A stretch of 45,091 bases of DNA from Candidatus Woesebacteria bacterium (GCA_020060105.1 JAGVAV010000039.1:1-45091); one strand, 5' to 3'. Counted from the first letter of the stretch, positions 9,588-45,091 are shown. Numbers and translations are program-made. The notes: generated by a model from the letters alone, not told the origin.

Positions 9588-12059
9588 TTAAGGTTTTTCT
9601 TGCCAAGAGTAAACAGGTTTTTTAAGAATTTCGTGTGCGTAAAGAAATAGCTCTGGCCGATAGACAAACTGTTCGGCGGGGGTATTATAGTTCTTTCTGG
9701 TTGCTCCTGAGTCTAGGTCTCGATTGAGGGAAAAACTTCCGGCGGCAAATAAACCTCGGCCAATAAATTGCTTATTTGAGGCTTGAGTGGTGAAAGTTCC
9801 TTTAGCCATATAGATTCCTTCGATGAATTCACTGTTGCTTTCAATGGTGATGTCACCGTTAACAATGAAAGCGATGGAACTATTCGAAGGGAGGGTGATA
9901 TTGCCTCTGATGGTTAAGTCTTGATCGATAAAGATGATCGCCTTAAGGTTGTTTGGAAAGGTGTGGTTATTGTTGATCGTTAAACTCGGGTTGGTGGCGC
10001 GCCAGAGACCGTCTGAATTGACGCTGTTGACATTACTAAAGTTGGTTACGGGATTTTTACCGGCTTGGTTTTGATAGTGGTCGATAAGATCACTGCTGGC
10101 GTGGTTATAGCCGCGTAAACTTTTGTCCGGACTAGCGGTGCCAGGCTCTATAGAGAGGTTTCCGTTTAAAACTAGGATTCCTTCGGGTTCTGAAGCACCA
10201 CTAGGAGGGGTCATTAACTCTCGAGGAGTAGCTAAGTAACCAACTTTTGTGACGGTCAGATTGCCTAAAACAACAAGGTCTCCCCCGCCTTTGGTTTGAA
10301 ACCAAGCGTTTTGCTTGTTCCAAAAGCCGAAATGAGCGTTTTGTGTTCCGCCAGCGGTAGTGATAGTGATGCTAAGAGTGGGGGCGGTGGTGGGGATCCA
10401 ACTTTCAGCCAGACTAGCCAGATCTGACAAGTTGTTGACCCAGACAGTGTGAGCTCGATTGATTGGGACGTTGTTAAAGCTAAAACTGCTTCTGGTTAAT
10501 CGGCAGTTTGTGGTATCAGTTAAGCAAACTTGGACATTTTCCGGCATATCCGTCTCGTCTCCTTGCCGAACACCGTCGCCGTTTTTGTCGTTCCAAACGT
10601 AACCCGTGATTGTGCCAATCCCCTGAACTCCGAAATCGACACTGTGGGTTCCGTTTGGATCAACCGTGACGGAGCGAGTAACCGGGGTGGTGTTCTGCCA
10701 GTTTGAAGGAACCTCAATTCGGACGGTGTGGGAACCGCGAGGGGCGTCAAAGGAAAAGTTATTTGGGTCATTGCTGTTAGTGGTTCCGCTTCCCCCTGGG
10801 CAGGGGCCACCTCCAGGCGGGTCAAGACAAATAGTCACACCGCTAACGTTTGGTTCTCCTCCGTCTTTAACTCCGTTGCCGTTTCTGTCGTCGAAAACGT
10901 TGCCGGTGACTGTCCCGGGAGGGGCAGTGGCGGTGACCGTGACGGAATCTAGGACTACTCCACCGGAACAACTGTCCCCCGTTCTTAACTGAAAGATATA
11001 GTTATGGTCATAGGTGATGGCGGTGGCTTCTTTATTTCCGGAAAGGCCGGTGCCAAAGGAAGTTCCGTCAAGACAAACGAGGGCGGAAGGGGTATTACTG
11101 GCACTCCAAGTAATCGTTGGGGTTTGGCCAAGAGTGCAGTAGGTATTTCCTTTGGCGATAGTGCAGGGATTTGGGCTGGCGGTGATCGTGCCGGCCGGAC
11201 CGGAAGCGCCGTAAACTCTTACCCAGGCCAGGTCTCCTCCGACGGCTGTCTTGTCCCACAACCGATAACCGTCCTGCCAGCGAGTGCTTTCGGCGTAGTA
11301 AGCAACGCCGTCATCGTAGGCATGTTGCCACGCGGCACGACTTTCTTCTGCTATCCAGTGAACGTCGTGATCCGCCCGGTGCACGGGAACAAGTAGAACG
11401 TTATGGCCTCTCAAATCTTGGGTAATGTAAAGTTCGAAGTAGATGGTTTCACCTGGCGTGACCGAAATTGGAGGGCTGAAGGTCGCTCCGGTTCTTTGTC
11501 CGAGACCGCCGCTCCAACCAAAAGAAGCGTCGGCTTTGCGCAAGAAATTCGGGTCGTTTAACTCCTCGGTGGTTTTCCAGGTTCCGCTGAGTTGATCTTG
11601 TTTTAAGCCTCGGTAAACTCTGATCTCTGCGGGCGAGCCAATCTGAGGGCTGCCTTCGCTGCCAACCCAGACGTCGTCAAAATATATGGCAGTTATCTGG
11701 TTAATACCTGGGGGAATCTTGATAGTTTGACCGGCGTAACTGTTTCCCGTGCAGCCTTCCCCGCAAGTTGAGTCCGGGGCGCCGTACCAGTGACGGCTCT
11801 CGCTCCATTTTTCACTGACGCTGCGCTGGTATTTATTATCCGTCGCGTTTGTCGGCCCGTGGACTAAAAGAGGGCGGGTAGGGTCGTCACACCAGATATG
11901 GTGATCATCTCTTGTCCACTGCCAAAAGAAACAGACCGTCCTGTAGTCGGGAATGGGAAGAGGATAGATGATCTCGTCGGCTTGGGCGGCTTTTGAGAAC
12001 AAGGGAAAGGCTAAGAAAAAAATAAAAAACAATAAAGACCGGAGCAGCAGCTTTTTCAT
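9588..12059 (-). CDS. Secreted surface protein with SdrD-like domains
   Basis: An 823-residue exported protein with a signal peptide at residues 1-27 (MKKLLLRSLLFFIFFLAFPL, then A-x-A). Residues about 45-285 look like a jelly-roll or carbohydrate-binding-like region; 290-375 is an Ig-like segment with Cys pairs; 380-478 and 482-580 are two SdrD/Cna-B-like modules with the VTGNVFDDRNGNGVKDGGEP and ITGYVWNDKNGDGVRQGDET openings, whose Asp/Asn loops usually bind calcium. Residues about 585-823 form a beta-helix-like domain that ends TPAEQFVYRPELF...YSWQEKP. The same ending closes the 2065-residue neighbour. It probably sits on the cell surface as an adhesin or structural protein. The start is 5 bases after the upstream gene's stop, so translation is coupled. 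Confidence 0.8.
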   Translation of the reverse strand: MKKLLLRSLLFFIFFLAFPLFSKAAQADEIIYPLPIPDYRTVCFFWQWTRDDHHIWCDDPTRPLLVHGPTNATDNKYQRSVSEKWSESRHWYGAPDSTCGEGCTGNSYAGQTIKIPPGINQITAIYFDDVWVGSEGSPQIGSPAEIRVYRGLKQDQLSGTWKTTEELNDPNFLRKADASFGWSGGLGQRTGATFSPPISVTPGETIYFELYITQDLRGHNVLLVPVHRADHDVHWIAEESRAAWQHAYDDGVAYYAESTRWQDGYRLWDKTAVGGDLAWVRVYGASGPAGTITASPNPCTIAKGNTYCTLGQTPTITWSASNTPSALVCLDGTSFGTGLSGNKEATAITYDHNYIFQLRTGDSCSGGVVLDSVTVTATAPPGTVTGNVFDDRNGNGVKDGGEPNVSGVTICLDPPGGGPCPGGSGTTNSNDPNNFSFDAPRGSHTVRIEVPSNWQNTTPVTRSVTVDPNGTHSVDFGVQGIGTITGYVWNDKNGDGVRQGDETDMPENVQVCLTDTTNCRLTRSSFSFNNVPINRAHTVWVNNLSDLASLAESWIPTTAPTLSITITTAGGTQNAHFGFWNKQNAWFQTKGGGDLVVLGNLTVTKVGYLATPRELMTPPSGASEPEGILVLNGNLSIEPGTASPDKSLRGYNHASSDLIDHYQNQAGKNPVTNFSNVNSVNSDGLWRATNPSLTINNNHTFPNNLKAIIFIDQDLTIRGNITLPSNSSIAFIVNGDITIESNSEFIEGIYMAKGTFTTQASNKQFIGRGLFAAGSFSLNRDLDSGATRKNYNTPAEQFVYRPELFLYAHEILKKPVYSWQEKP

Positions 12060-12640: not shown

Positions 12641-15600
12641 CTAAGGTAAGTTTTCCGTCCAGGAATAGAAAGACTTTTTAACTGAATCACTAGGGTGGAA
12701 AAGCAAATCTGGCCGGAATGAGAACTGTTCCGCCGGGGTGTTTGCGTTGTTGGTATCTAAATCTCGGTCAAGGCTAAATCCGCCTAAAGCGCTGAAAGAG
12801 CCGGCCGCTAGAAGTTGGGTCGCCGATCCGTCGTAGCCGGTGCGAAACTCTCCGTCAGTAAAGTAAAAGCCTTCAACTTTTGCCACGTCTCCATTGAGGA
12901 AAATGTTGCCGGAAGCGATAATTTCCACCGAACTTTTACTCCCAACGGGAACCTCAATGTTACTAGCAATCTTTAAATTTCCTTTGATCAGAACGGTCAC
13001 GATGGTGTCGTTTGGAACTGTCCAAGTGGTGACCGAACCGGTCTCGGGCGGAACGCGCAGGGTGACGGTTTGATCAGGTAAGGAAGTGGCGTCGTAATAG
13101 TATATCCCGGAAATGGTCGGTGGATTAGTCGGATCGAGATTCGAGGTAGTTGGAGATCCGGCGAGCTTGTAGAAGTAATCGTAATTGACGTTGGGCGGAA
13201 GAACCGAGGCGTTTTCATAAGAAGTTACCTTTATCTTGGTGGATTCATCCGCCCCTAGATCGACGGTTTGGCCGGAAACGACGCTTCGATCCGGGTCAAG
13301 GTTGAAAACCGCCGGAGTTTTAAAGGTGCGATCATACATTCGGTCAATCGGAGGTGGATAATATTGCTGGACCCAATCGGTAAAGGCCGAACCGCCAGAG
13401 TCGCCTCCAAAGCAGAAAATACTATGGGTTGAGCCAGTTATTCCTTCCGTACAGGATAAGCCGCTCATATTAACAAGAGTAGTGGCGGTCATGACTGTTC
13501 GGTTATTAGTGGCGGGGTTATATTCGAAAATTTCATTTGTCATTCCGGTTTGGGTAGTTCCACCAAAGCAGTAAATAAAGTTAGTCGAGGAATCAGCGGC
13601 GCAGGAGAGATAATGCCTGCCGCTAGTTAGGGTGGCTGAAAGATCAGTTGCGAGATTAGTCGCCGGATTATAGGCGGTTATTTTTGTTGAATGGCTGGCC
13701 GTACCATCGATACCGCCGAAGCAGTAAATAACATTGGTGGAACGGTCGGGGGCACAGGAGAGGCCCAACCTCTTGGTCGAAAAGGAGGTTTTATACGTGT
13801 AATATACGTTTGGGTCGGTACTCATCGGAACTAGAGTGTGGGGGTCGTACTCAATGATTTGGTCAAAATTAGCACCCTCACCGAAGCAGTAAATCTTCCA
13901 GTTGTCACTCGCGTCTCTGGCGTCAACGCAGGAAGCGTAGCTTTTAAATATTGAGGTTAAACTTCCGTCGTTTCTAACAGCCTCAGCACTAGTGTCATTG
14001 GCTCTCGGGTCATACTCAATGACTGACCAGCCTGTTCCTGTGCTGCTAGTTTGAACGCCCCCGAAACAGTAGATTTTGTTAATGTCGGCGCCATAGCCGG
14101 TGCAGGTAGCGGCATACTTGGCGCGAGGTAACTTGGCATTTTTAGTTTTCACCGCGAGAGTGTTTGGATTAAACTCGACGATTCCGTCATAAGCTTCCTT
14201 TGAACCGTCTTCTTTTTCTCGGTAACCGCCGAAGCAGTAGATGTTACTGCTTAAAGGATCCTTAGCGCAAGCGGAATCCCGGATATCGTAAGGCATCACC
14301 GTGTTGGGAAGGATGGGCGATCTGACATAATTTGCGTAGAGATCTCCCCCGTTGATCTGAAACCAACCCATCTCTGATCTTAGGCCAAAGTTAATTTCTT
14401 TAGTTATCGGGGTACCTCCAGCTGTGGAAACACTGCTAGTGTACGGGATAGAGGCGCCTGTTTCGGTGGGGTCGTTGACGTTGTACCAGCCGATCGATCG
14501 GTAAGCTGTGGGGAGGATATAGCTGAGTGAAACGTTGTCCGGCGGTAGGACCTTAGTGGTTACGGAGTAGGTGTTAAGGCAGTCTGTATCGCTGGCGAAA
14601 TTAGAATAGTCTCCGTTGAGAGAGAAAGTAATCACTCCATTATAGCAAGGCTCTCCAACGTCTTTAAGCCTATTTTTCACGACCGAATCTATCCAGACCT
14701 TTCCGGTGATGGTTACCGTTACGGGTACGACTTTGATGGTGAGAGTGATCTTTTGGTCAAACCAACCCTTCGGACCATACATTTGCCAGTTAAAGGAGTA
14801 ATCCTTATCGTTGGTGTCTGTTAAGGTTGGGGCGGTGATACCAAAGTTAAAACTATAAGTTTGGTTTGGGAGAACGCTTCCATCAACATATTCGACAATC
14901 TCGTTTTGGGCGCCCTCGGTGTTACTGTAGCCTTCCAAGCAATAAATTTTGTCCGCCGAGGGAAGATTGACACACTTGGCAAATATTTCACTAGTTGGTA
15001 AGATGGCGGTTTTCGAAAATACCAGATCTTGTTTTGGGTCGTACTCGAAGACTTGGTTAACGTTGTTTGTTCCGTCGTATCCCCCGAAACAGTAAATAGT
15101 GTGCTTGGCCGAGTTTTCCGCGCAGGCGAGATTTGACAAACTTGCGGGAAGCGTAGCGGTTTTGGGATTAACGGTGTTGCCAGCAGGATCGTATTCGAAG
15201 ATTTGATTGGTAAAGTTCCAGGAAGGGTCGTGGCCCCCAAAACAATAAATTTTATTTGTGGAGGAATCGTTAGCGCAACCTGATTCATAGATCCCGGCGG
15301 GAGTGACGGCGCCTGTAGGAGCGATATTGTGTGTGCTTGGATCAAACACGAGAACTTCGTTATAAACCGAGCCATTAAAACCTTGAAAGCAATAAATTTT
15401 ATCGTTTGCACTTTCAATGCAGTTTGAAAATATTTCTCCCCGAGGAAGGGTGCCAACGTTTGCAAGATTATTGTTTGAAGGGTCAAATTCTATGATTTGG
15501 TTTAGAAAAGCATATGAAGAATTATTACCACCGAAGCAATAAATTTTGTTCGTTAAAGAACTTTCTGAACAAACCAAAGCAGTCTGTGGTTCGGTTAGTG

Positions 15601-18600
15601 TCGTGGTGAGGGTAGTAAGATCGTCAGAGATTGGATCATAAGCAAAGATTTGATTGGTCATCGAGCCAGAAGTTATGCCCCCGAAACAAAATATCTTGTC
15701 GCTTGTGGGATCTTTGGCGCAGCCCGACCCAATCACGTTTGGGGTTGTCGCGGCCATCGTTTTAATTGTATCCGGCGGTAAAAGATCGACTTTGCTTAAT
15801 CCCCAGACGATATTTCCAGCGGGATCTTGACTGCCAAGATAGTAGCCATCGCTTTTAGTCCACTTTGTCGTTCCGCTGTTTTTAAGGGTGATTTTTACTG
15901 AGGCGGTTGCCCCCGAGACCATGGTCGTTGGACCGTCGTAGGAAACAAAAGAAGCTTTGTCGGGGGCGGTTACGGTAATAGAGATAATCGCTTTGTTATC
16001 AAATTTCACCCCTGATTTATGGACCTGCCAGTTGAAGGCTTTGATCTCATCTGTAGCTCCGGAAAGAGAAGGAGCGGTAACGCTAATTGGAAATTCAAAG
16101 GATTGCCCAGGATTGATAGTAGAGAACTGGTGTTCACTGATGGTATTTAGAGTCGCGCTATCAGTATATCCCCCAAAACAGTAAATTTTATTGGTCGTGG
16201 AGTTCTCGGTGCAGGAAAGGCCGTCGGTTCCTGACGGCAGGGTGAGAGGCTCCGTAGTGAGAGTGTCGAGAGCCGAGTTGTAAGAAACTATTTGATTAAG
16301 GAGAGTATTGCTACTGTTAAGACCTCCGTAACAATAAATTTTGTGACTACCGGAATTTTCCTTACAGGAGGAAAGGTAAGCGGCAAAAGGCAAAGTTGCC
16401 GATTTGGTGGCTAGGGTGTCAAAGACAGGATCGTACTCATAAATTTGAGCGACTTTTCCCGTGGTGCTTGTCCCGCCAAGGCAGTATATTTTGTGGCTGG
16501 CGGAGTTTTCGGCGCATTGAGTGATTATATTGCTTGGAAAGACAGCGGTTTTGGTATTTAAGCTGTTAGCCAACGGATCATATTCAAAGATCTTGTTACT
16601 TAGGCTGGTAGCGTACCCCCCAAAACAATAAATTTTATTAGTGGCAGAATTTTCGGCGCAGGAAAGGCCCCACATTCCGGCTGGTAATGTGGTAGATTTT
16701 ATGGTTAAGCTATCGCTAGAGGGGGTGTATTCTAAGATTTGGTTAGAGTAGCCCGAAGCTGTCCACCCCCCAAAACAATAAATTTTATTTGTTGAGGAAT
16801 CCTGGGCGCAAGATAATTTATCTCTAGCGGTGGGTAGCTTTGATGATTTGGTAATGAGGGTGTCATTAACGGGGTCATATTCAGTGATTTGGTCTAAGAC
16901 ATTAGTTGAATCAGACCCTCCAAAACAATAGATTTTACCGGTGGAAGTATTTTCCACGCAAGAAAGATCGTATCTTGGCGCTGGTAACAACGCAGATTTA
17001 CTAACAAAAGTATCGCTTTCTGGTAAATTCGCTTGAGTGGCTCCCCAAACATTATCTTCAGTTAGGCCAAGATGATAATTTGTGTTTTTAGACCAGCTGG
17101 ATTTGCCGATGTTTTTCATTGTTATTTTCACACTAGCATTTGCCCCGCTAACAATTGAAGAAGGTCCTTCATAAGAGACAAAGGAGGCGAGATTATAAGT
17201 AGGATCGGCAATTCTCACGAAGCCAGAGGCAAAAACGTTTGACCCGGGGTAAGTGCTTTCATAGTTCTGGCTGTGCCAGTTAAATTGATAATATCCTTGT
17301 CTACTAAATGTAAACGGAAAAGTCAGGGTTTGGCTGGTAAGACTTGGAATGATAGCAGTCTGATGGGTACTTTCCACGACAAGACTTTGGTTAGAATATC
17401 CAGCGGCTGCACTGCAGTCAGCGAGTTCTTTTTCGGTTAGGGCTGGGTTATAGATATCTTGTCCAGGACAACTGTTAACCCGATAAAGTGACGACCAGGT
17501 GGTGTCGCTTAGATCTAGGGCATTGTTGTTATAGAGAGTAATATGAAAATCCAACTTGGCGCCTTCGGAGGAATATTCAAAGATTTGATTAAGGAGTGCG
17601 CTCCCGTCGTTTCCACCAAAACAGTAAATTTTGCTGTTAGCGGTACTTTGAGTGCAGCTAAGGTTCCATCGACTGGAAGTTAGAGGGGAAGCTTTAGTGG
17701 CGAGGGTATTGTTTACCGGGTTGTATTCGACTATTTCGTTAAGAAGGCCGGAGTTTCCCGAACCGCCGAAACAGTAAATTTTATTGGTTTGAGGGTTTTT
17801 ATTGCAGGCTAAGCCCATCCTTTCACTAGGCAGGGAATTTACTGACAAAACTGCGTTGGCGTTATCTGGGCTTGAAGGGTTGTATTCGATAATTTGGTTA
17901 AGCCTGCTACCCGCTTCATTTTTTCCGCCAAAGCAATAAATTTTACGACTATATGATTCGTCGTACCCCTCGGCGCAGGAAAGATAAGCGGTATTTCCAG
18001 GCAAGGCGGCGGTTTTGATCTTAACGGCGTTGTTATCGTCCGGAGCGGTGGGATCATACTCAATAATTTGGTTAAGCCAGCCTCCGCTGGTTATCCCTCC
18101 GAAACAGTAGATTTTGTTAGTGTCCGGGTTTCTGGCGCAGGAGTGGTAGTATCTGCCTGAGGGGAGGGTGGCGGTTTTTGTTTTGATGTTAGTTCCGGTG
18201 TCAGCGGCTGCCGGATCATACTCGATGATCTGGTTAAGCCAGCTTCCCCCGCCGTAGCCTCCAAAACAATAAATTTTAAGATTGTTAGCGGAGTCGTATC
18301 CTTCAGCGCAAGAAAGACCGAGTCTTTTGGTTGGCAACGTGGCGACCTTTTTAACGTTAATGTCTGTAGCTGGGTTGTATTCTTCAACATGATTACTTGC
18401 ACCTGAGCCATCGTTACCGCCAAAGCAATACATTTTGCCTGTTTTAGGGTTTTCCACGCATGAATGTCCTTCTCTGGATACCGAGAGAAGGGCTGATTTA
18501 ATTTTAAGATCATCTCCGGGACCCATAGAAAAACCCGTTCGATAGGCATCGGGGTCGTTTTGGTAACAGGTACCGTTGGTCTCGTAGCTAGAACAGGATC

Positions 18601-18838
18601 CGGCATAACTATTTGTTCCAGCGTATACATCAACGTCACTTCCTCCGGCTTTAAACCTCGGGAAACTATAATTAACCGGGGAGCCGGAAATACTGTAACC
18701 AGCGGCAGAGTTTGGGGCTGCTCCCCAAGGAGTGGATAAATCTATCGTGCTGGCAGACACGGTTGATGAAGCTAGGAAAGTGAAAACTACTAGCGCAACA
18801 AAAATACAAATCGCTCTTTGGGCAAAGCTTTTAATCAT
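12641..18838 (-). CDS. Giant secreted protein with four six-bladed kelch-like propellers
   Basis: A 2065-residue exported protein with a signal peptide at 1-30. It contains 24 kelch-like blades of about 50 residues, each with the core N-K-I-Y-C-F-G-G and a trailing I-x-E-Y-(D/N)-P. They fall in four blocks of six: about residues 109-424, 609-906, 1023-1319 and 1513-1832. Blocks 2 and 3 interrupt NBR1-type Ig domains: the first half (SYEGPSSIVSGANASVKITM or SYDGPTTMVSGATASVKITL) lies before each block and the second half (F-N-W-Q-V/M) after it. An SdrD-like module lies at about 1375-1500. The C-terminal domain (about 1850-2065) matches that of the 823-residue protein. Sugar binding or adhesion is likely, but the ligand is unknown. 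Confidence 0.85.
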   Translation of the reverse strand: MIKSFAQRAICIFVALVVFTFLASSTVSASTIDLSTPWGAAPNSAAGYSISGSPVNYSFPRFKAGGSDVDVYAGTNSYAGSCSSYETNGTCYQNDPDAYRTGFSMGPGDDLKIKSALLSVSREGHSCVENPKTGKMYCFGGNDGSGASNHVEEYNPATDINVKKVATLPTKRLGLSCAEGYDSANNLKIYCFGGYGGGSWLNQIIEYDPAAADTGTNIKTKTATLPSGRYYHSCARNPDTNKIYCFGGITSGGWLNQIIEYDPTAPDDNNAVKIKTAALPGNTAYLSCAEGYDESYSRKIYCFGGKNEAGSRLNQIIEYNPSSPDNANAVLSVNSLPSERMGLACNKNPQTNKIYCFGGSGNSGLLNEIVEYNPVNNTLATKASPLTSSRWNLSCTQSTANSKIYCFGGNDGSALLNQIFEYSSEGAKLDFHITLYNNNALDLSDTTWSSLYRVNSCPGQDIYNPALTEKELADCSAAAGYSNQSLVVESTHQTAIIPSLTSQTLTFPFTFSRQGYYQFNWHSQNYESTYPGSNVFASGFVRIADPTYNLASFVSYEGPSSIVSGANASVKITMKNIGKSSWSKNTNYHLGLTEDNVWGATQANLPESDTFVSKSALLPAPRYDLSCVENTSTGKIYCFGGSDSTNVLDQITEYDPVNDTLITKSSKLPTARDKLSCAQDSSTNKIYCFGGWTASGYSNQILEYTPSSDSLTIKSTTLPAGMWGLSCAENSATNKIYCFGGYATSLSNKIFEYDPLANSLNTKTAVFPSNIITQCAENSASHKIYCLGGTSTTGKVAQIYEYDPVFDTLATKSATLPFAAYLSSCKENSGSHKIYCYGGLNSSNTLLNQIVSYNSALDTLTTEPLTLPSGTDGLSCTENSTTNKIYCFGGYTDSATLNTISEHQFSTINPGQSFEFPISVTAPSLSGATDEIKAFNWQVHKSGVKFDNKAIISITVTAPDKASFVSYDGPTTMVSGATASVKITLKNSGTTKWTKSDGYYLGSQDPAGNIVWGLSKVDLLPPDTIKTMAATTPNVIGSGCAKDPTSDKIFCFGGITSGSMTNQIFAYDPISDDLTTLTTTLTEPQTALVCSESSLTNKIYCFGGNNSSYAFLNQIIEFDPSNNNLANVGTLPRGEIFSNCIESANDKIYCFQGFNGSVYNEVLVFDPSTHNIAPTGAVTPAGIYESGCANDSSTNKIYCFGGHDPSWNFTNQIFEYDPAGNTVNPKTATLPASLSNLACAENSAKHTIYCFGGYDGTNNVNQVFEYDPKQDLVFSKTAILPTSEIFAKCVNLPSADKIYCLEGYSNTEGAQNEIVEYVDGSVLPNQTYSFNFGITAPTLTDTNDKDYSFNWQMYGPKGWFDQKITLTIKVVPVTVTITGKVWIDSVVKNRLKDVGEPCYNGVITFSLNGDYSNFASDTDCLNTYSVTTKVLPPDNVSLSYILPTAYRSIGWYNVNDPTETGASIPYTSSVSTAGGTPITKEINFGLRSEMGWFQINGGDLYANYVRSPILPNTVMPYDIRDSACAKDPLSSNIYCFGGYREKEDGSKEAYDGIVEFNPNTLAVKTKNAKLPRAKYAATCTGYGADINKIYCFGGVQTSSTGTGWSVIEYDPRANDTSAEAVRNDGSLTSIFKSYASCVDARDASDNWKIYCFGEGANFDQIIEYDPHTLVPMSTDPNVYYTYKTSFSTKRLGLSCAPDRSTNVIYCFGGIDGTASHSTKITAYNPATNLATDLSATLTSGRHYLSCAADSSTNFIYCFGGTTQTGMTNEIFEYNPATNNRTVMTATTLVNMSGLSCTEGITGSTHSIFCFGGDSGGSAFTDWVQQYYPPPIDRMYDRTFKTPAVFNLDPDRSVVSGQTVDLGADESTKIKVTSYENASVLPPNVNYDYFYKLAGSPTTSNLDPTNPPTISGIYYYDATSLPDQTVTLRVPPETGSVTTWTVPNDTIVTVLIKGNLKIASNIEVPVGSKSSVEIIASGNIFLNGDVAKVEGFYFTDGEFRTGYDGSATQLLAAGSFSALGGFSLDRDLDTNNANTPAEQFSFRPDLLFHPSDSVKKSFYSWTENLP
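13340..18510 (-). repeat. Tandem kelch-blade DNA repeats (24 copies)
   Basis: The part of each blade coding N-K-I-Y-C-F-G-G recurs as near-identical DNA on the plus strand, e.g. CCAAAACAATAAATTTTATT at about 15238, 16620 and 16769, and close variants near 17929 and 18260. Copies are spaced roughly 135-170 bases within each of the four blocks. The similarity is highest in block 2 (about 16120-17010), which suggests recent expansion there. This is a protein repeat, not a CRISPR or intergenic element. Confidence 0.8.
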
Positions 18839-18844
18839 AACTTT

Positions 18845-19489
18845 TTAGTTAAAGTCCCCTCGATTTAATCGGACTAGTTCCCCACCTAAGGGTACACTCA
18901 TAACGGTATCATTTCTAGTTAGGACAAAAACTAGAGAGGAATTTTGATAAAGAGGCATTGGTTCCCCCTCAGTGTTCCCAATTGTCTCGCCTCTTTTAAC
19001 GGTTTTATTTTCCGGGAGAGGTCCGACAAAATAATATGCCGCTCGGAGAAGCTTATCCTTATTAGTGAGAAGAACCATAGTTATGTCTTGTGTTTGGGTA
19101 TCCTTTGAGGATTTGGCGATTTTAATTTGACGGGAAGACACCTCACCATCGAAAGCGGCAATGAGAGGACTACCTTTTTCTATTTTCGCCCCGAAGCCTA
19201 TATAGCTTGAATCAACGCTGATATCCGTGCCGTTTTGGCAAAAGGAAGGGAGGCTGGGACAAGCAAAAGGGCCTTTTTGTTCCTCTGATGGAAGAGGAAA
19301 GGAAGCGGCTTGCAGCTCAACGAAATTTTCTTTCAATATTCTTGGTTGGGAGAGGATAAAGAATGCGGCGCTTAAAGTCAGAACAAGTGAAGTTGTCAGA
19401 ACAATCCAACGGACCAGGTTATCTTGGGCCAGGTCCTTGAGGACTTGAGTTCTCCAATTAGCTTGAATAGTTTGAGATTGATTCCTCAT
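18845..19489 (-). CDS. Membrane-anchored protein with degenerate M23-like domain
   Basis: A 214-residue protein with an N-terminal cytoplasmic segment, a hydrophobic helix at about 29-50 (IVLTTSLVLTLSAAFFILS) and an exported beta-rich domain (75-214). Segments such as F-G-A-K-I-E-K-G-S-P-L-I-A-A-F-D-G-E-V and T-V-K-R-G-E-T-I-G-N-T-E-G resemble the barrel-sandwich core of M23 peptidases, with the typical P-x-x-A-x-x-D-G-x-V turn. The H-x-H zinc motif of active M23 enzymes is missing, so it is probably a non-catalytic peptidoglycan- or partner-binding domain. It is the first gene of the surface cluster and ends 6 bases before the 2065-residue protein. Confidence 0.6.
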   Translation of the reverse strand: MRNQSQTIQANWRTQVLKDLAQDNLVRWIVLTTSLVLTLSAAFFILSQPRILKENFVELQAASFPLPSEEQKGPFACPSLPSFCQNGTDISVDSSYIGFGAKIEKGSPLIAAFDGEVSSRQIKIAKSSKDTQTQDITMVLLTNKDKLLRAAYYFVGPLPENKTVKRGETIGNTEGEPMPLYQNSSLVFVLTRNDTVMSVPLGGELVRLNRGDFN

Positions 19490-24267: not shown

Positions 24268-24933
24268 TTATTCCAAAACGAGATGTTTTATATCTTGAAG
24301 CTTTCTTTGGTAGTCTAGCTGATCGAAAACGAAATTTTGGTAACTTAAGTTCTTGAAATGGTTTAGAATAATATCACCTTTAATAAATGGCAAGAACTTT
24401 TGCCCTAAAAAATTTGAAAGGGAAGACCAAGGATAGCCTGCTAAGTTTTCCTTTTCTATCAAGTAAGAAGAAACGGGATTTAAATGAATGTAACGATTGA
24501 CATGCAAAAGCTGTTCTTCCGATTCAATCCTGACCGCTTTAAACATTGATTCAAAGAGCGGGCCAGTTCTGTTTAACTTAATGTTAAAGTACCTGGCATA
24601 ACTGTTTTGGAGATTCTTCATAAAAACTGAGATTCCTTTATCGGAAAGTTGCTGTAAAAGGAAGTGGATATGGTTTGGCATGAGGCAGAAAGAAATAATG
24701 TTGACTAAGTTTTTATTTTGGTTGATTTTGTTTAGGAAAGCTATCTTTTCTTGTTCGTTTAAGCGATTAAAATGCGAGTACCTCATTGGGAGGTTTTCAA
24801 ACCGGTAAAAGTTAACTAAATTAATAAACCTCTGATAGTCACGTTTGTCTATAAAGATAGGATTTCTTGCTACCCCTCGATTGATGACGTGGTAAATTTC
24901 GTTATTTGCCAAAGGAGTTTTTCGATACGGCAT
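24268..24933 (-). CDS. REP-associated tyrosine transposase (RAYT, Y1 family)
   Basis: A 221-residue single-strand DNA transposase of the IS200-like Y1 group. It begins MPYRKTPLANNEIYHVINRG, the usual RAYT opening. The HUH metal motif is H88-I-H90 in CLMPNHIHFLL; the likely catalytic tyrosine is Y112 in LQNSYARYFN; R-T-G-P-L-F-E-S-M-F-K and Y-I-H-L-N-P-V are further family landmarks. RAYTs are domesticated enzymes that move short REP palindromes rather than themselves. REP-like copies in opposite orientation lie on both sides. The gene has a TTGACA-17-TAAAAT promoter 6 bases from its ATG. Confidence 0.92.
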   Translation of the reverse strand: MPYRKTPLANNEIYHVINRGVARNPIFIDKRDYQRFINLVNFYRFENLPMRYSHFNRLNEQEKIAFLNKINQNKNLVNIISFCLMPNHIHFLLQQLSDKGISVFMKNLQNSYARYFNIKLNRTGPLFESMFKAVRIESEEQLLHVNRYIHLNPVSSYLIEKENLAGYPWSSLSNFLGQKFLPFIKGDIILNHFKNLSYQNFVFDQLDYQRKLQDIKHLVLE

Positions 24934-41621: not shown

Positions 41622-42614
41622 TTATTTCACTATCTCCTTGATTTCCTCCGGGGTAAATCCCAAGGCCGGTTTATAAATTTCCTGAACTTCCAGTTCGAGA
41701 CCGAAAAGGGCTTCTTTGACGATTCGGCCAAATTGCCCATAGGAAGATTCAATGATGGCGATTTTTTCGTATTTTTTAGCGACAATCCGGGCATCTTGGA
41801 CAGGAAAAGGCCAGAGGGTAATTGATCGGAAAAGGCTGACTCCGGCCGCTTTAGCCGCCGCGGCCACGATTCCGTGGGCAAAAACTAAGGTTTTGGTCTG
41901 ACCCGGCCGATGTTCAAACTTACTGACTTGGGATGAGGCTTCTTGCCAGGCTTTCTTATGACGAACGTTTAGATCATAAATTTCTTCTTCCAGGTTGAAA
42001 CAGTTTCTCAGATTAACGTTTCCTTCAAGGATTGGTTTGGCATTAATTAAAATGCCTGGGTTGTGCAAGTTGACTTCCCCTTTCATTTTTCCTAAATATC
42101 CGTCAAATAAAACAAAAGTGGGAAAGCGGTAAAGCCAGGCGTTATTAAAAGCTAAAATGGTCAGATCATAAATTTCCTGCAAATTCGAGGGAGAGTAAAC
42201 AATTCGGTACCCTTCCCCATTGCCGCCGAAGGCGGTCAGGGTGGTTTCTTGTTGGGAATAAATGACCGTCCCAGTCGAAGGTCCCCCTCTTTGGCCAATC
42301 AGGCCAACAAAAGGGACCCTAAGGGCTTCGGCCATTGAGAGCGGATCCTGCATTAAGACGTTGCCCGGCCCGGCGGTGGAGGTAAAGGCCTTTTTTCCGG
42401 CTAGGCAAGCCCCAACAACGCCGAAACCAGCCGCTCCTTCGTCCTCGGTCTGAAGATATTTTTTTTGATGTTGGGTGGCTAGACTGATCCAGGTGGAAAG
42501 AACTTCGGTGGTTGGGGTGATGGGGTATCCAAACATAACTTCCGCTCCAGCCGCGAGGGCTGCTTGGGCGGCGACTTCGTTTCCCATCAAAAATTGTCTT
42601 TGGGCAGTCTGCAT
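41622..42614 (-). CDS. 2-oxoacid:ferredoxin oxidoreductase alpha subunit
   Basis: A 330-residue subunit with the pyrimidine-domain motif FGYPITPTTEVLSTW, the S-T-A-G-P-G-N-V-L-M-Q-D loop and the G-Q-R-G-G-P-S-T-G-T signature. I chose the ATG at 42614, the usual start just before the first conserved region; a longer frame would cross the promoter. The promoter places transcription at the ATG. The 67-base gap to the beta gene is AT-rich with short repeats (ATCAAA) and no gene. Confidence 0.93.
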   Translation of the reverse strand: MQTAQRQFLMGNEVAAQAALAAGAEVMFGYPITPTTEVLSTWISLATQHQKKYLQTEDEGAAGFGVVGACLAGKKAFTSTAGPGNVLMQDPLSMAEALRVPFVGLIGQRGGPSTGTVIYSQQETTLTAFGGNGEGYRIVYSPSNLQEIYDLTILAFNNAWLYRFPTFVLFDGYLGKMKGEVNLHNPGILINAKPILEGNVNLRNCFNLEEEIYDLNVRHKKAWQEASSQVSKFEHRPGQTKTLVFAHGIVAAAAKAAGVSLFRSITLWPFPVQDARIVAKKYEKIAIIESSYGQFGRIVKEALFGLELEVQEIYKPALGFTPEEIKEIVK

Positions 42615-42620
42615 GCTTTT

Positions 42621-42650
42621 ATTATACGAGGGTGAAAATGTAAAAGTCAA
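42621..42650 (-). promoter_or_regulatory. Promoter of oxidoreductase operon, leaderless
   Basis: Minus-strand TTGACT (42645-42650), 18 bases, TATAAT (42621-42626), and exactly 6 bases to the ATG. It is the clearest leaderless promoter in the window. Confidence 0.72.
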
Positions 42651-42665
42651 AGGGGAAAATAGGGG

Positions 42666-42694
42666 TTGCAAAATATTTAAGATTATTTTAAGAT
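42666..42694 (+). promoter_or_regulatory. Possible promoter of the large surface gene
   Basis: TTGCAA (42666-42671), 17 bases, TAAGAT (42689-42694). It is divergent from the oxidoreductase promoter, whose -35 box lies 16 bases away. The match is moderate. Confidence 0.4.
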
Positions 42695-42738
42695 TAAATA
42701 AGCAAACAAGTAAAGGGTTATTATTCCTTCTGCCAAGA

Positions 42739-45091
42739 ATGAGAAATATTTATCGAAAAATTAAATCCTCCAAGTTGGCCGTTTTCTTTCTCGGATTATT
42801 TTTAGTTTCCATTGTTTTAAATGTGGTTTTTGTTTTATTTCTTAGGAAAGTTACTTTTATCTCATATCAATTTAATTATTCCCCTGAAGGGCCCCTCTTC
42901 TCAGAAATACTTAAGACGAAAGATCTTTCTTCTTTAGTTTTAGAGTCTAACTTTTTTTATTTTCTTCTTGCTTTAGTCTTTGGCTTGGTTTTTATAGTTC
43001 TTTACTTGACTCACGACCGTTGGGAAACGAGTATTAATTATCGCTTGGCCTCGCACCCTCACTCCAAGGTTAAGAATTTTAAGCTTCACCGTTATTTTCA
43101 TTGGTTGATGCTTCTGGTGACCGTTTTTGTTTTAGCCGTGGGGATGAGTGTGGAGTTTCAGGAAAAATCCAAGGTGACGAAAGCGGCCACTTACACGAAA
43201 ACCTGGACTTCGTATAACGATTTTCACTTTAAAAACGGGGTTTCCGGAACCACTTCGACTCAGTCGGGGGTGACGATCAGCGGTTCGGGAACGCCGACAG
43301 ACGCGACCGGGTCAGTCAGTTTGACTTACACTTCTTCCTCCAGCGCCCAAACCTCAGATAGTGACTTCAACGGCGGGACCTTGACTCAGGCAACAGTCAG
43401 CGGGACCGGCGATTCGGGTCAAGTGAATTTAGCCGTAGTTACCACCGGCGATGTTTGGGCCACCATGAGTAGTACCCCGGCTATCTTCTCGACTGGGGGA
43501 TCTTTAGTCTACCCAGGTTCCGGAGATTATCTTTACACCTTTCGCGGAGGCGGCTATGTTAATTTTTACCGATACTCAATTAGCGGGAACAGTTGGGAGA
43601 GTCGGACCAACGCCCCGCTAAGTGTTTCCGTTGGAGGGTCGTTAGTCTACCCTGGTTCCGGAGATTATCTTTATGGTTTACGGGGGAACAATTATACCGA
43701 CTTTTTGCGTTATTCCATTAGCGGAAACAGTTGGGATAGCTTAACTTCGGCTCCGGCAACAGTGCGATGGGGAGGATCTTTAGTTTACCCCGGCTCAGGA
43801 GATTACCTTTACGCTTTTCGGGGAAATACCACAACTGACTTCTGGCGATACTCAATCAGCGGAAACAGTTGGGAGTCTCGAGCTTCGCCTTCGGCAACAG
43901 TCGGTGAAGGGGCAGGTTTAGTTTACCCCGGCTCAGGAGATTACCTTTACGCTTTTCGCGGAGGCAGCACCACTGACTTTTGGCGCTATTCCATCAGCGG
44001 AAACAGCTGGGATAGCCTAACTTCGGCTCCCGGAGCAGTTTGGAATGATGGGAATAGCTTAGTCTATCCAGGTTCAGGCGATTACCTTTACGCTGCCCCA
44101 GGAAGTGACGACTTGTGGCGATACTCCATTAGTGGTAACAGTTGGGAAACAGACTTAACTGGCCCCGTAGCAACATGGGGCGGTGGAAAATCCCTAGTTT
44201 ACCCAGGATCTGGAGATTACCTTTACGTTCTCAGGGGAGGCGCTACCCAAGACTTTTGGCGCTACGCTTTTAGAACCACCTATCAATCCTCCGGGGATTT
44301 TGTTTCCTCGACGGTTGACACCGGCCAATCCTCTTCCTTTACGACCTTGGGTTTCAATGTTTCTAAACCAACGGATACGAATATTCAATTTCGATTAAGA
44401 TCCGCCACTTCCGAGGCAGCTTTAACCGAAGCGACTTGGTATGGGCCAGCTTCGACAGATGACTATTACACTTCCACGGGAACGGCGATAAACAGTATTC
44501 ACAATGGGGATCGGTACGTGCAGTACAAGGCTTTTCTGACCACCTCCGACACGACTCAAACACCCACGCTGGCCGATTTGACGATTAATTATCAGTATTA
44601 CCCTTCTTCCGGGACCATTTCCAATCTCGTTTTAGACACCACCGCGGAATCCGTTTTTGGCGACCTTTCCTGGTCGGCTTCTACTCCGGCGGGAACTTCG
44701 GTTAAGTTCAGAGTTAGAACCGCTTCTTCGGAAGCAGGGTTGTCCGCCGCTTCATGGTCTGCCTATATCACCACTTCCCCCACGGACGTCTCAGAAGCCG
44801 ATAATCAATACGCGGAGCTAGAGATTACCTTAGAAAGCAGTGACGGGGTAAACACCCCCACTTTAAATGATATCTCTTTAGTTTACGCTCAAAACTCTTC
44901 TCCGGTCGTCGCTACCCCTTCCGCTTCCTTAGCCACCGATGGAACAGGAGTGGTGAGCCTGACATATAATTTATCCGACGCGGAAGAAGGGTTATGCACC
45001 GACAGCGGAGTTTGCGCCGGAGTGGATGAGGGAAATGTAAACGTAACTATTCAATATTCAACAGATTCAGCTAACTGGTCTAACGCTTCGA
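42739..45091 (+). CDS. Large exported protein with six-repeat propeller, partial (3' end missing)
   Basis: An open frame of at least 784 codons that runs off the window. Two hydrophobic helices lie at about residues 11-37 and 72-95, and a third at about 126-142 (WLMLLVTVFVLAVGM-like). From about 160 the protein is Ser/Thr/Gly-rich and beta. Residues about 253-513 hold six repeats of S-L-V-Y-P-G-S-G-D-Y-L-Y ... R-Y-S-I-S-G-N-S-W, each about 43-45 long, kelch- or propeller-like. Two fibronectin- or concanavalin-like domains follow (D-T-G-Q-S-S-S-F; V-K-F-R-V-R-T-A-S-S-E-A). No good ribosome site precedes the ATG. Confidence 0.78.
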   Translation, partial: MRNIYRKIKSSKLAVFFLGLFLVSIVLNVVFVLFLRKVTFISYQFNYSPEGPLFSEILKTKDLSSLVLESNFFYFLLALVFGLVFIVLYLTHDRWETSINYRLASHPHSKVKNFKLHRYFHWLMLLVTVFVLAVGMSVEFQEKSKVTKAATYTKTWTSYNDFHFKNGVSGTTSTQSGVTISGSGTPTDATGSVSLTYTSSSSAQTSDSDFNGGTLTQATVSGTGDSGQVNLAVVTTGDVWATMSSTPAIFSTGGSLVYPGSGDYLYTFRGGGYVNFYRYSISGNSWESRTNAPLSVSVGGSLVYPGSGDYLYGLRGNNYTDFLRYSISGNSWDSLTSAPATVRWGGSLVYPGSGDYLYAFRGNTTTDFWRYSISGNSWESRASPSATVGEGAGLVYPGSGDYLYAFRGGSTTDFWRYSISGNSWDSLTSAPGAVWNDGNSLVYPGSGDYLYAAPGSDDLWRYSISGNSWETDLTGPVATWGGGKSLVYPGSGDYLYVLRGGATQDFWRYAFRTTYQSSGDFVSSTVDTGQSSSFTTLGFNVSKPTDTNIQFRLRSATSEAALTEATWYGPASTDDYYTSTGTAINSIHNGDRYVQYKAFLTTSDTTQTPTLADLTINYQYYPSSGTISNLVLDTTAESVFGDLSWSASTPAGTSVKFRVRTASSEAGLSAASWSAYITTSPTDVSEADNQYAELEITLESSDGVNTPTLNDISLVYAQNSSPVVATPSASLATDGTGVVSLTYNLSDAEEGLCTDSGVCAGVDEGNVNVTIQYSTDSANWSNAS
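43495..44277 (+). repeat. Six tandem propeller repeats
   Basis: Six units of about 130 bases encode S-L-V-Y-P-G-S-G-D-Y-L-Y followed by (D/N)-F-W-R-Y-S-I-S-G-N-S-W; the sixth is incomplete at its end. The DNA is highly alike between copies (TACCCCGGCTCAGGAGATTA recurs at about 43784 and 43923), which points to recent duplication. Confidence 0.8.

Follow-up and report, generated by a model that had tools for sequence, protein, structure and literature searches.

Organization of the gene and its product

The stretch of DNA analyzed here comprises 45,091 nucleotides from a Candidatus Woesebacteria bacterium (GCA_020060105.1 JAGVAV010000039.1:1-45091; the window) whose genome amounts to 1.09 Mb in 40 contigs. 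A single uninterrupted open reading frame on the minus strand (12641-18838) encodes a protein of 2065 residues. The protein contains 24 kelch-like blades arranged in four blocks, and three of these blocks are propellers inserted into other domains rather than placed between them. The features annotated along this gene are listed below in the order in which they are translated.

12641..18838, minus strand: gene of the 2065-residue protein, single open frame
18749..18838, minus strand: probable Sec signal peptide (residues 1-30), read from a basic start, a hydrophobic core and an ASA-type end
18515..18748, minus strand: N-terminal segment ahead of block 1 (residues 31-108), with predicted local distance difference test (pLDDT) below 50 and no Pfam match
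17567..18514, minus strand: propeller block 1 (residues ~109-424), six blades with cysteine (Cys) pairs, from a blade motif scan; pLDDT ~95
17195..17566, minus strand: segment that follows block 1 (residues 425-548), perhaps immunoglobulin (Ig)-like; low pLDDT and no convincing relative
17012..17194, minus strand: NBR1-type Ig domain A, first half (residues 549-609), hidden Markov model (HMM) nodes 1-64
16124..17005, minus strand: propeller block 2 (residues ~612-905), six blades with Cys pairs, hosted by Ig A, from motif scan, HMM and AlphaFold2 (AF2)
15953..16123, minus strand: Ig domain A, second half (residues 906-962), HMM nodes 63-99 and positions 62-108 of the PF16158 profile
15767..15952, minus strand: NBR1-type Ig domain B, first half (residues 963-1024), HMM nodes 3-72
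14879..15766, minus strand: propeller block 3 (residues ~1025-1320), six blades with Cys pairs, hosted by Ig B, from motif scan and HMM
14726..14878, minus strand: Ig domain B, second half (residues 1321-1371), HMM nodes 65-110
14369..14725, minus strand: SdrD_B-like region (residues 1372-1490), matching a paralogue of the same genome and a 451-residue protein of a sister genus
14303..14368, minus strand: C-terminal domain, first part 'GWFQINGGDLYANYVRSPILPN' (residues 1491-1512), from alignment with a relative that has an empty site
13331..14302, minus strand: propeller block 4 (residues ~1513-1836), six blades with Cys pairs, hosted by the C-terminal domain, from motif scan and the empty-site relative
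12644..13330, minus strand: remainder of the C-terminal (DUF7305-type) domain (residues 1837-2065) with a W-x-E-x-x-P tail at its end, from comparison with relatives

The probable signal peptide suggests that the 2065-residue protein is secreted. Almost every secreted member of the family (this protein and the relatives L008-L022) ends within one or two residues of the W-x-E-x-x-P tail, which might serve as an export or attachment signal.

Propeller blades and their cysteines

The motif scan of the protein placed the blade starts at residues 136-404, 636-885, 1049-1298 and 1533-1807, with exactly six in each range and no block with five or seven, in agreement with an earlier account of this stretch made from the sequence alone (the sequence-only reading). 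The Pfam kelch families match far above their cut-offs (E-values down to 1e-91), with the double glycine and the aromatic strand that follows it both present. AF2 models of blocks 1 and 2 show a closed ring of six four-stranded blades (pLDDT 95-98), and the best fold matches in the PDB are six-bladed Kelch structures, with template modelling (TM) scores of 0.80-0.88 normalized to the target. The exact DNA form of the Cys-blade motif has nine matches in the window, all of them in this gene, and none in 100 shuffles.

Each blade contains exactly two cysteines, both here (24 of 24 blades) and in the paralogue on contig C34 (six of six), so that blade cysteines make up 48 of the 55 cysteines of the protein. 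The sequence-only reading had made no mention of these pairs. Twelve Cys columns are invariant in all fifteen of the aligned propellers. The block-2 model places the two cysteines of each of its six blades on adjacent antiparallel strands, facing each other in exact register across the A-B hairpin, and they are predicted to form a disulfide staple. The genome also encodes two proteins of the DsbA/thioredoxin_4 type.

All the guests share the same order of strands, with a D-type strand ('LxTKSATLP') occurring first and a C-type strand ('NQIxEY') last, and this order is kept even where the guest forms the end of the protein (L052 and L053). The first propeller strand of the block-2 model spans positions 66-73 and the last spans 355-360, which we take to be the outer strands of the blade that closes the ring. 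Both ends of the guest would then leave the propeller side by side, and a propeller of this kind could easily be inserted into a hairpin loop, where it would be tied to its host at two points through short linkers.

Blades occupying the same position in different propellers are no more similar to each other than blades occupying different positions (0.493 vs 0.496). The blade positions thus appear to be interchangeable, which argues against a unique active site and hence against the proposal that the propellers are enzymes of the mutarotase or galactose-oxidase-like kelch type mounted on a stalk, instead of binding heads. The profiles of N-acetylneuraminate epimerase and mutarotase do give weak matches, which speak for such enzymes, but these matches fall far under the curated cut-offs (78.9 vs 416 bits) and can be attributed to the shared kelch repeat. 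We regard an enzymatic role as improbable.

Blocks 2 and 3 inside NBR1-type Ig domains

Unlike the continuous NBR1-type Ig, the Ig domains A and B are each interrupted by about 295 residues. An HMM was built from four uninterrupted NBR1-type Ig domains, one from the sister genus (L037) and three (L056, L057 and L062) from two further families within the class. This model aligns Ig A in two pieces around block 2 (nodes 1-64 and 63-99) and Ig B in two pieces around block 3 (nodes 3-72 and 65-110). The consistent split at nodes 63-65 indicates that both blocks occupy the same loop, which lies between the strand ending in 'VWG..xVxLP' and the strand beginning with 'PGxxxxFxF'.

Once joined, the Ig halves match the uninterrupted Ig domains of other families end to end, and their PF16158 scores are far better than those of the separate halves. 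Joined Ig A reaches an E-value of 6e-6 (27.2 bits, just below the 28-bit cut-off), compared with 0.025 for its second half alone and no match for its first half. Joined Ig B gives an E-value of 0.0011 (20.0 bits against the same cut-off of 28) where neither half alone matches. These scores and the uninterrupted relatives place the halves where the sequence-only reading had put them, and sequence comparison thus shows blocks 2 and 3 to be nested in two NBR1-type Ig domains.

An AF2 prediction of residues 545-970, covering Ig A together with block 2, has a mean pLDDT of 91.1 and a predicted TM score (pTM) of 0.82, with the propeller located between two ordered Ig halves (strands 7-59 and 369-413). 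The model supports a packing of the two halves around block 2, the pairing of the halves resting on the Ig B row and on physics as the continuous Ig relatives entered the alignment as first halves only. The linkers of about six and eight residues would fit a two-point mount of the propeller. Joined Ig A and joined Ig B are 44% identical, and this identity together with the shared loop suggests that blocks 2 and 3 may go back to one insertion followed by a tandem duplication.

Block 4 and the propeller-free counterparts

The evidence for block 4 comes from relatives in which the insertion site is empty. Positions 92-241 of the 451-residue protein of the sister genus (L037 1798-3153, minus strand) match residues 1370-1519 of the 2065-residue protein, and positions 239-451 match residues 1845-2065. 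The two matched stretches touch at the position of the propeller, which makes this protein an empty site for block 4. An 801-residue paralogue in the same genome carries one Cys-propeller at the block-4 site, and the first quarter-thousand residues of this paralogue are 43% identical to the 451-residue protein outside the insert. The C-terminal domain is common in this class of bacteria and was found free of guests in many class members, as well as in two more paralogues of the same genome (window 9588-12059 and L009). Block 4 had been described as following 'GWFQINGGD' in the C-terminal domain; the empty-site relative bears this out, and its alignment shows block 4 to be nested in that domain.

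Two other genes of the window enter into this comparison:

9588..12059, minus strand: 823-residue paralogue with SdrD_B and the same C-terminal domain, without a propeller, from sequence comparison
18845..19489, minus strand: directly upstream gene of 214 residues with one apparent membrane segment; in the sister genus, a relative of this gene directly precedes the propeller-free counterpart

A protein of 1016 residues is encoded in the sister genus downstream of the homologue of this small upstream gene (E-value 3e-24; L037 10725-11429), and a homologous S11 peptidase occurs in the same neighbourhood. It contains one uninterrupted NBR1-Ig scoring above the Pfam cut-off (31.2 bits), together with an SdrD_B-like region and a C-terminal domain of the same kind as here; the Pfam scan gave no kelch match for it. 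The 1016-residue protein is the propeller-free counterpart of the 2065-residue protein, so that homologues without propellers, which the sequence-only reading had proposed to look for, do exist. The many guest-free relatives suggest a gain of propellers here rather than a loss in the sister genus.

Members of the family were also found directly before pilM-pilN-pilO in two genera (L008 611-3016 and L038 1-2727). One of them carries a propeller and the other PA14 and F5/8C, i.e., differing binding domains on the same C-terminal domain in the same place. Such a location was not seen around ten other relatives and does not amount to a rule for the family, and the Pfam scan returned no pilin or PilY1 domain in the 2065-residue protein.

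Block 1

Block 1 was also modelled as a six-bladed propeller with pLDDT ~95. Its flanks (residues 31-108 and most of 427-552) have pLDDT values mostly below 50 in a single-sequence prediction, they match no Pfam family, and the search for relatives gave only noise. With no family match, no clear relative and low pLDDT, the nesting of block 1 is unproven, and the claim that it interrupts an N-terminal region was not confirmed. Repeated domain-in-domain insertion thus holds for blocks 2, 3 and 4, where uninterrupted relatives, the HMM split, the block-2 fold and the sister-genus empty sites speak for it, and not for block 1.

The flanks of block 1, with no recognisable domain and low model confidence, are what would be expected if the propellers alternated with short independent linker domains like beads on a string, the supposed halves being separate small domains. 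It also counts in favour of this arrangement that an apparent nesting in another surface-protein family (window 42475-45090 and UBA1449 L045) is not supported. For blocks 2-4, however, the uninterrupted relatives hold both halves back to back with a single consistent split point, and the joined Ig halves outscore either half by far. We consider a beads-on-a-string arrangement to have little chance of being correct, and retain the insertion of whole propellers into host domains as our interpretation.

Relatives and history of the Cys-pair propeller

Among 84,980 species genomes scanned for the Cys-blade DNA pattern C-x7-KIYCFGG, sixteen loci matched. Twelve of them encode Cys-pair kelch blades, mostly as a readable set of six, whereas the remaining four (L041, L042, L044 and L047) contain no kelch protein and were taken as chance matches. 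The twelve come from Kerfeldbacteria, UBA1449 (with three blocks in 2007 residues), two Colwellbacteria, one Paceibacterota, Woesearchaeota, Diapherotrites, Pacearchaeota (a propeller cut by the locus end), two Aenigmarchaeota, one Phycisphaerales and one further bacterial record, and thus spread over other bacteria of the Candidate Phyla Radiation (CPR), DPANN archaea and two other bacterial records. Real matches in the home phylum occurred in one of 380 sampled genomes, namely the present one, and among 374 genomes of the class the only kelch proteins found elsewhere were Cys-less ones of another kind. The distribution of the Cys-pair propeller is by these counts rare and patchy.

All 18 of the extracted propellers carry 12-14 cysteines. 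In the two Colwellbacteria the guest lies in an Fn3-like domain, behind its first strand. The same protein also holds an uninterrupted Fn3-like copy, which aligns through the joint with matching length, although the first piece is just 9-14 residues long. In Kerfeldbacteria (L039 1-5664), a Cys-pair propeller was observed in the middle of the repeat region of an RHS/YD-repeat protein.

The four propellers of the protein are only 30-47% identical to one another, and block 2 is as near to the propellers of Colwellbacteria (50%) and Woesearchaeota (47%) as it is to block 1 (47%). The propeller tree is star-like, and no bootstrap tree unites the propellers of this genome, although a single clade of them is not rejected (approximately unbiased test, p ~0.40). 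This latter result, and the possibility raised above that blocks 2 and 3 are a duplicated unit, would suit a recent in-place duplication in which all four propellers were copied from one within the gene by no noteworthy insertion process. The low identities, the bootstrap trees and the occupation of at least two different host folds stand against it, and such an origin seems unlikely to us, if less so than the two alternatives considered earlier. Recent duplication of single blades or blocks was also dropped as a candidate, just 12 repeated 20-mers being present within the gene, as was horizontal gain recognized by odd base composition, because the G+C fraction of the propellers (0.44-0.48) overlaps that of the hosts (0.43-0.50).

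Independence of all four insertions, on the other hand, is not supported either, given the likeness of Ig A and Ig B at one loop and the block-4 site shared with the 801-residue paralogue. We tentatively propose, at somewhat less than even confidence, that the stapled six-bladed propeller is a general plug-in guest which spread among Patescibacteria, DPANN archaea and a few bacteria and was inserted several times independently into loops of NBR1-Ig, DUF7305-type C-terminal and Fn3 domains, owing to its side-by-side ends on the outermost hairpin.

Other genes in the window

A second large surface-type protein is encoded at 42475-45090 (plus strand) and runs past the contig end. It contains a Cys-less six-bladed propeller of a different kind ('SLVYPGSGDYLY...FWRYSISGNSWES') followed by a jelly-roll of the type seen in UBA1449 L045. 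Its paralogues in this genome (L090) and in the sister genus (L091-L093) have the same frame on both sides and different middle domains, which include LamG/DUF2341-like and glycine-rich domains and another propeller of WRIEKRD repeats. This family thus appears to have a swappable middle slot. Nesting of the propeller in the jelly-roll was dropped for both UBA1449 L045 and the window protein, as the jelly-roll of the relatives starts right there after many unrelated domains. An IS200-type Y1 transposase gene lies at 24268-24933 (minus strand), between uvrC and a transglutaminase-core protein.

Interpretation and comparison with known propellers

We think it fairly likely that the gene, from a bacterium of the Patescibacteria type, encodes a secreted surface protein whose host domains received whole six-bladed kelch propellers as guests in their loops. 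Each guest would open on strand D, the outermost one of its last blade, and end after strand C of that same blade, and each blade would be stapled by the Cys pair in register on its A-B hairpin. The stacked Ig, SdrD-like and C-terminal domains may form a stalk, possibly a rigid one as the sequence-only reading had it, from which the propellers would project laterally as binding heads. They could then function as an adhesin or ligand-binding array, plausibly for attachment to other cells or polymers.

Several observations weigh against this interpretation. The host domain of block 1 cannot be recognised from its flanks, the packing of the Ig halves around block 2 was judged from pLDDT and pTM, and the role in binding cells or polymers is deduced from domain types. 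Neither a membrane anchor nor a wall anchor was found in the 2065-residue protein, and the search of the genome gave no VKOR, which usually re-oxidizes DsbA in bacteria of this sort.

None of the separate elements is new in kind, since kelch propellers, NBR1-Ig domains and propellers nested singly have all been described. The present propellers share their six kelch blades with Keap1, KLHL20, NS1-BP and the designed SAKe6, the group that supplies the best PDB fold matches given above. Keap1-type propellers are cytosolic and located at the chain end, while those described here would be secreted, carry two cysteines per blade and lie inside other domains. Prolyl oligopeptidase is the familiar case of a single nested propeller that interrupts another domain in sequence. 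The likeness to the prolyl oligopeptidase and DPP4 family, in which the propeller lies within or beside an alpha/beta hydrolase, ends there, as that family has one propeller of seven or eight blades gating an enzyme, with neither repetition nor Ig or C-terminal surface hosts. The propeller of DPP10 is an open ring without velcro (PMC4350108).

Among surface proteins, PilX2 of Saccharibacteria is a seven-bladed propeller pilin proposed as a host-binding factor in the same phylum (PMC12206443). It is compared here together with the PilY1-type pilus adhesins; like the present protein, PilX2 is a surface propeller of Patescibacteria, and a paralogue of the present family is found beside pilM-pilN-pilO. 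PilX2 differs in that its propeller is of the RCC1 type and forms the C-terminal part of a pilin, compared with nested kelch propellers and no pilin part seen in the present protein. In PorZ, a surface protein belonging to the type IX secretion system, an N-terminal strand closes the propellers (PMC5121618); these are two seven-bladed propellers arranged in series without nesting, and they belong to another fold family. The Cys-pair propellers found in DPANN archaea and in other CPR bacteria likewise have six blades, 12 cysteines and identical entry and exit strands. They occupy other hosts or chain ends, and more than one block was observed only in UBA1449 among those seen. The open-licence papers searched describe no Cys-paired propeller that is nested repeatedly and has empty-site relatives. 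The opinion that no protein with this plan has been described is fair for multiply nested kelch propellers in that literature, though single nested propellers are known from other families.

Before-and-after sequence pairs for the insertion of a domain of about 300 residues into the middle of a fold, repeated in one polypeptide, are rarely so clean. Propellers with side-by-side ends would be natural, engineerable guests for loops. To our knowledge, the cultivated members of such bacteria, most of which are known only from sequence, all live attached to other microbes, and surface proteins of the kind described here are candidate host-binding factors.

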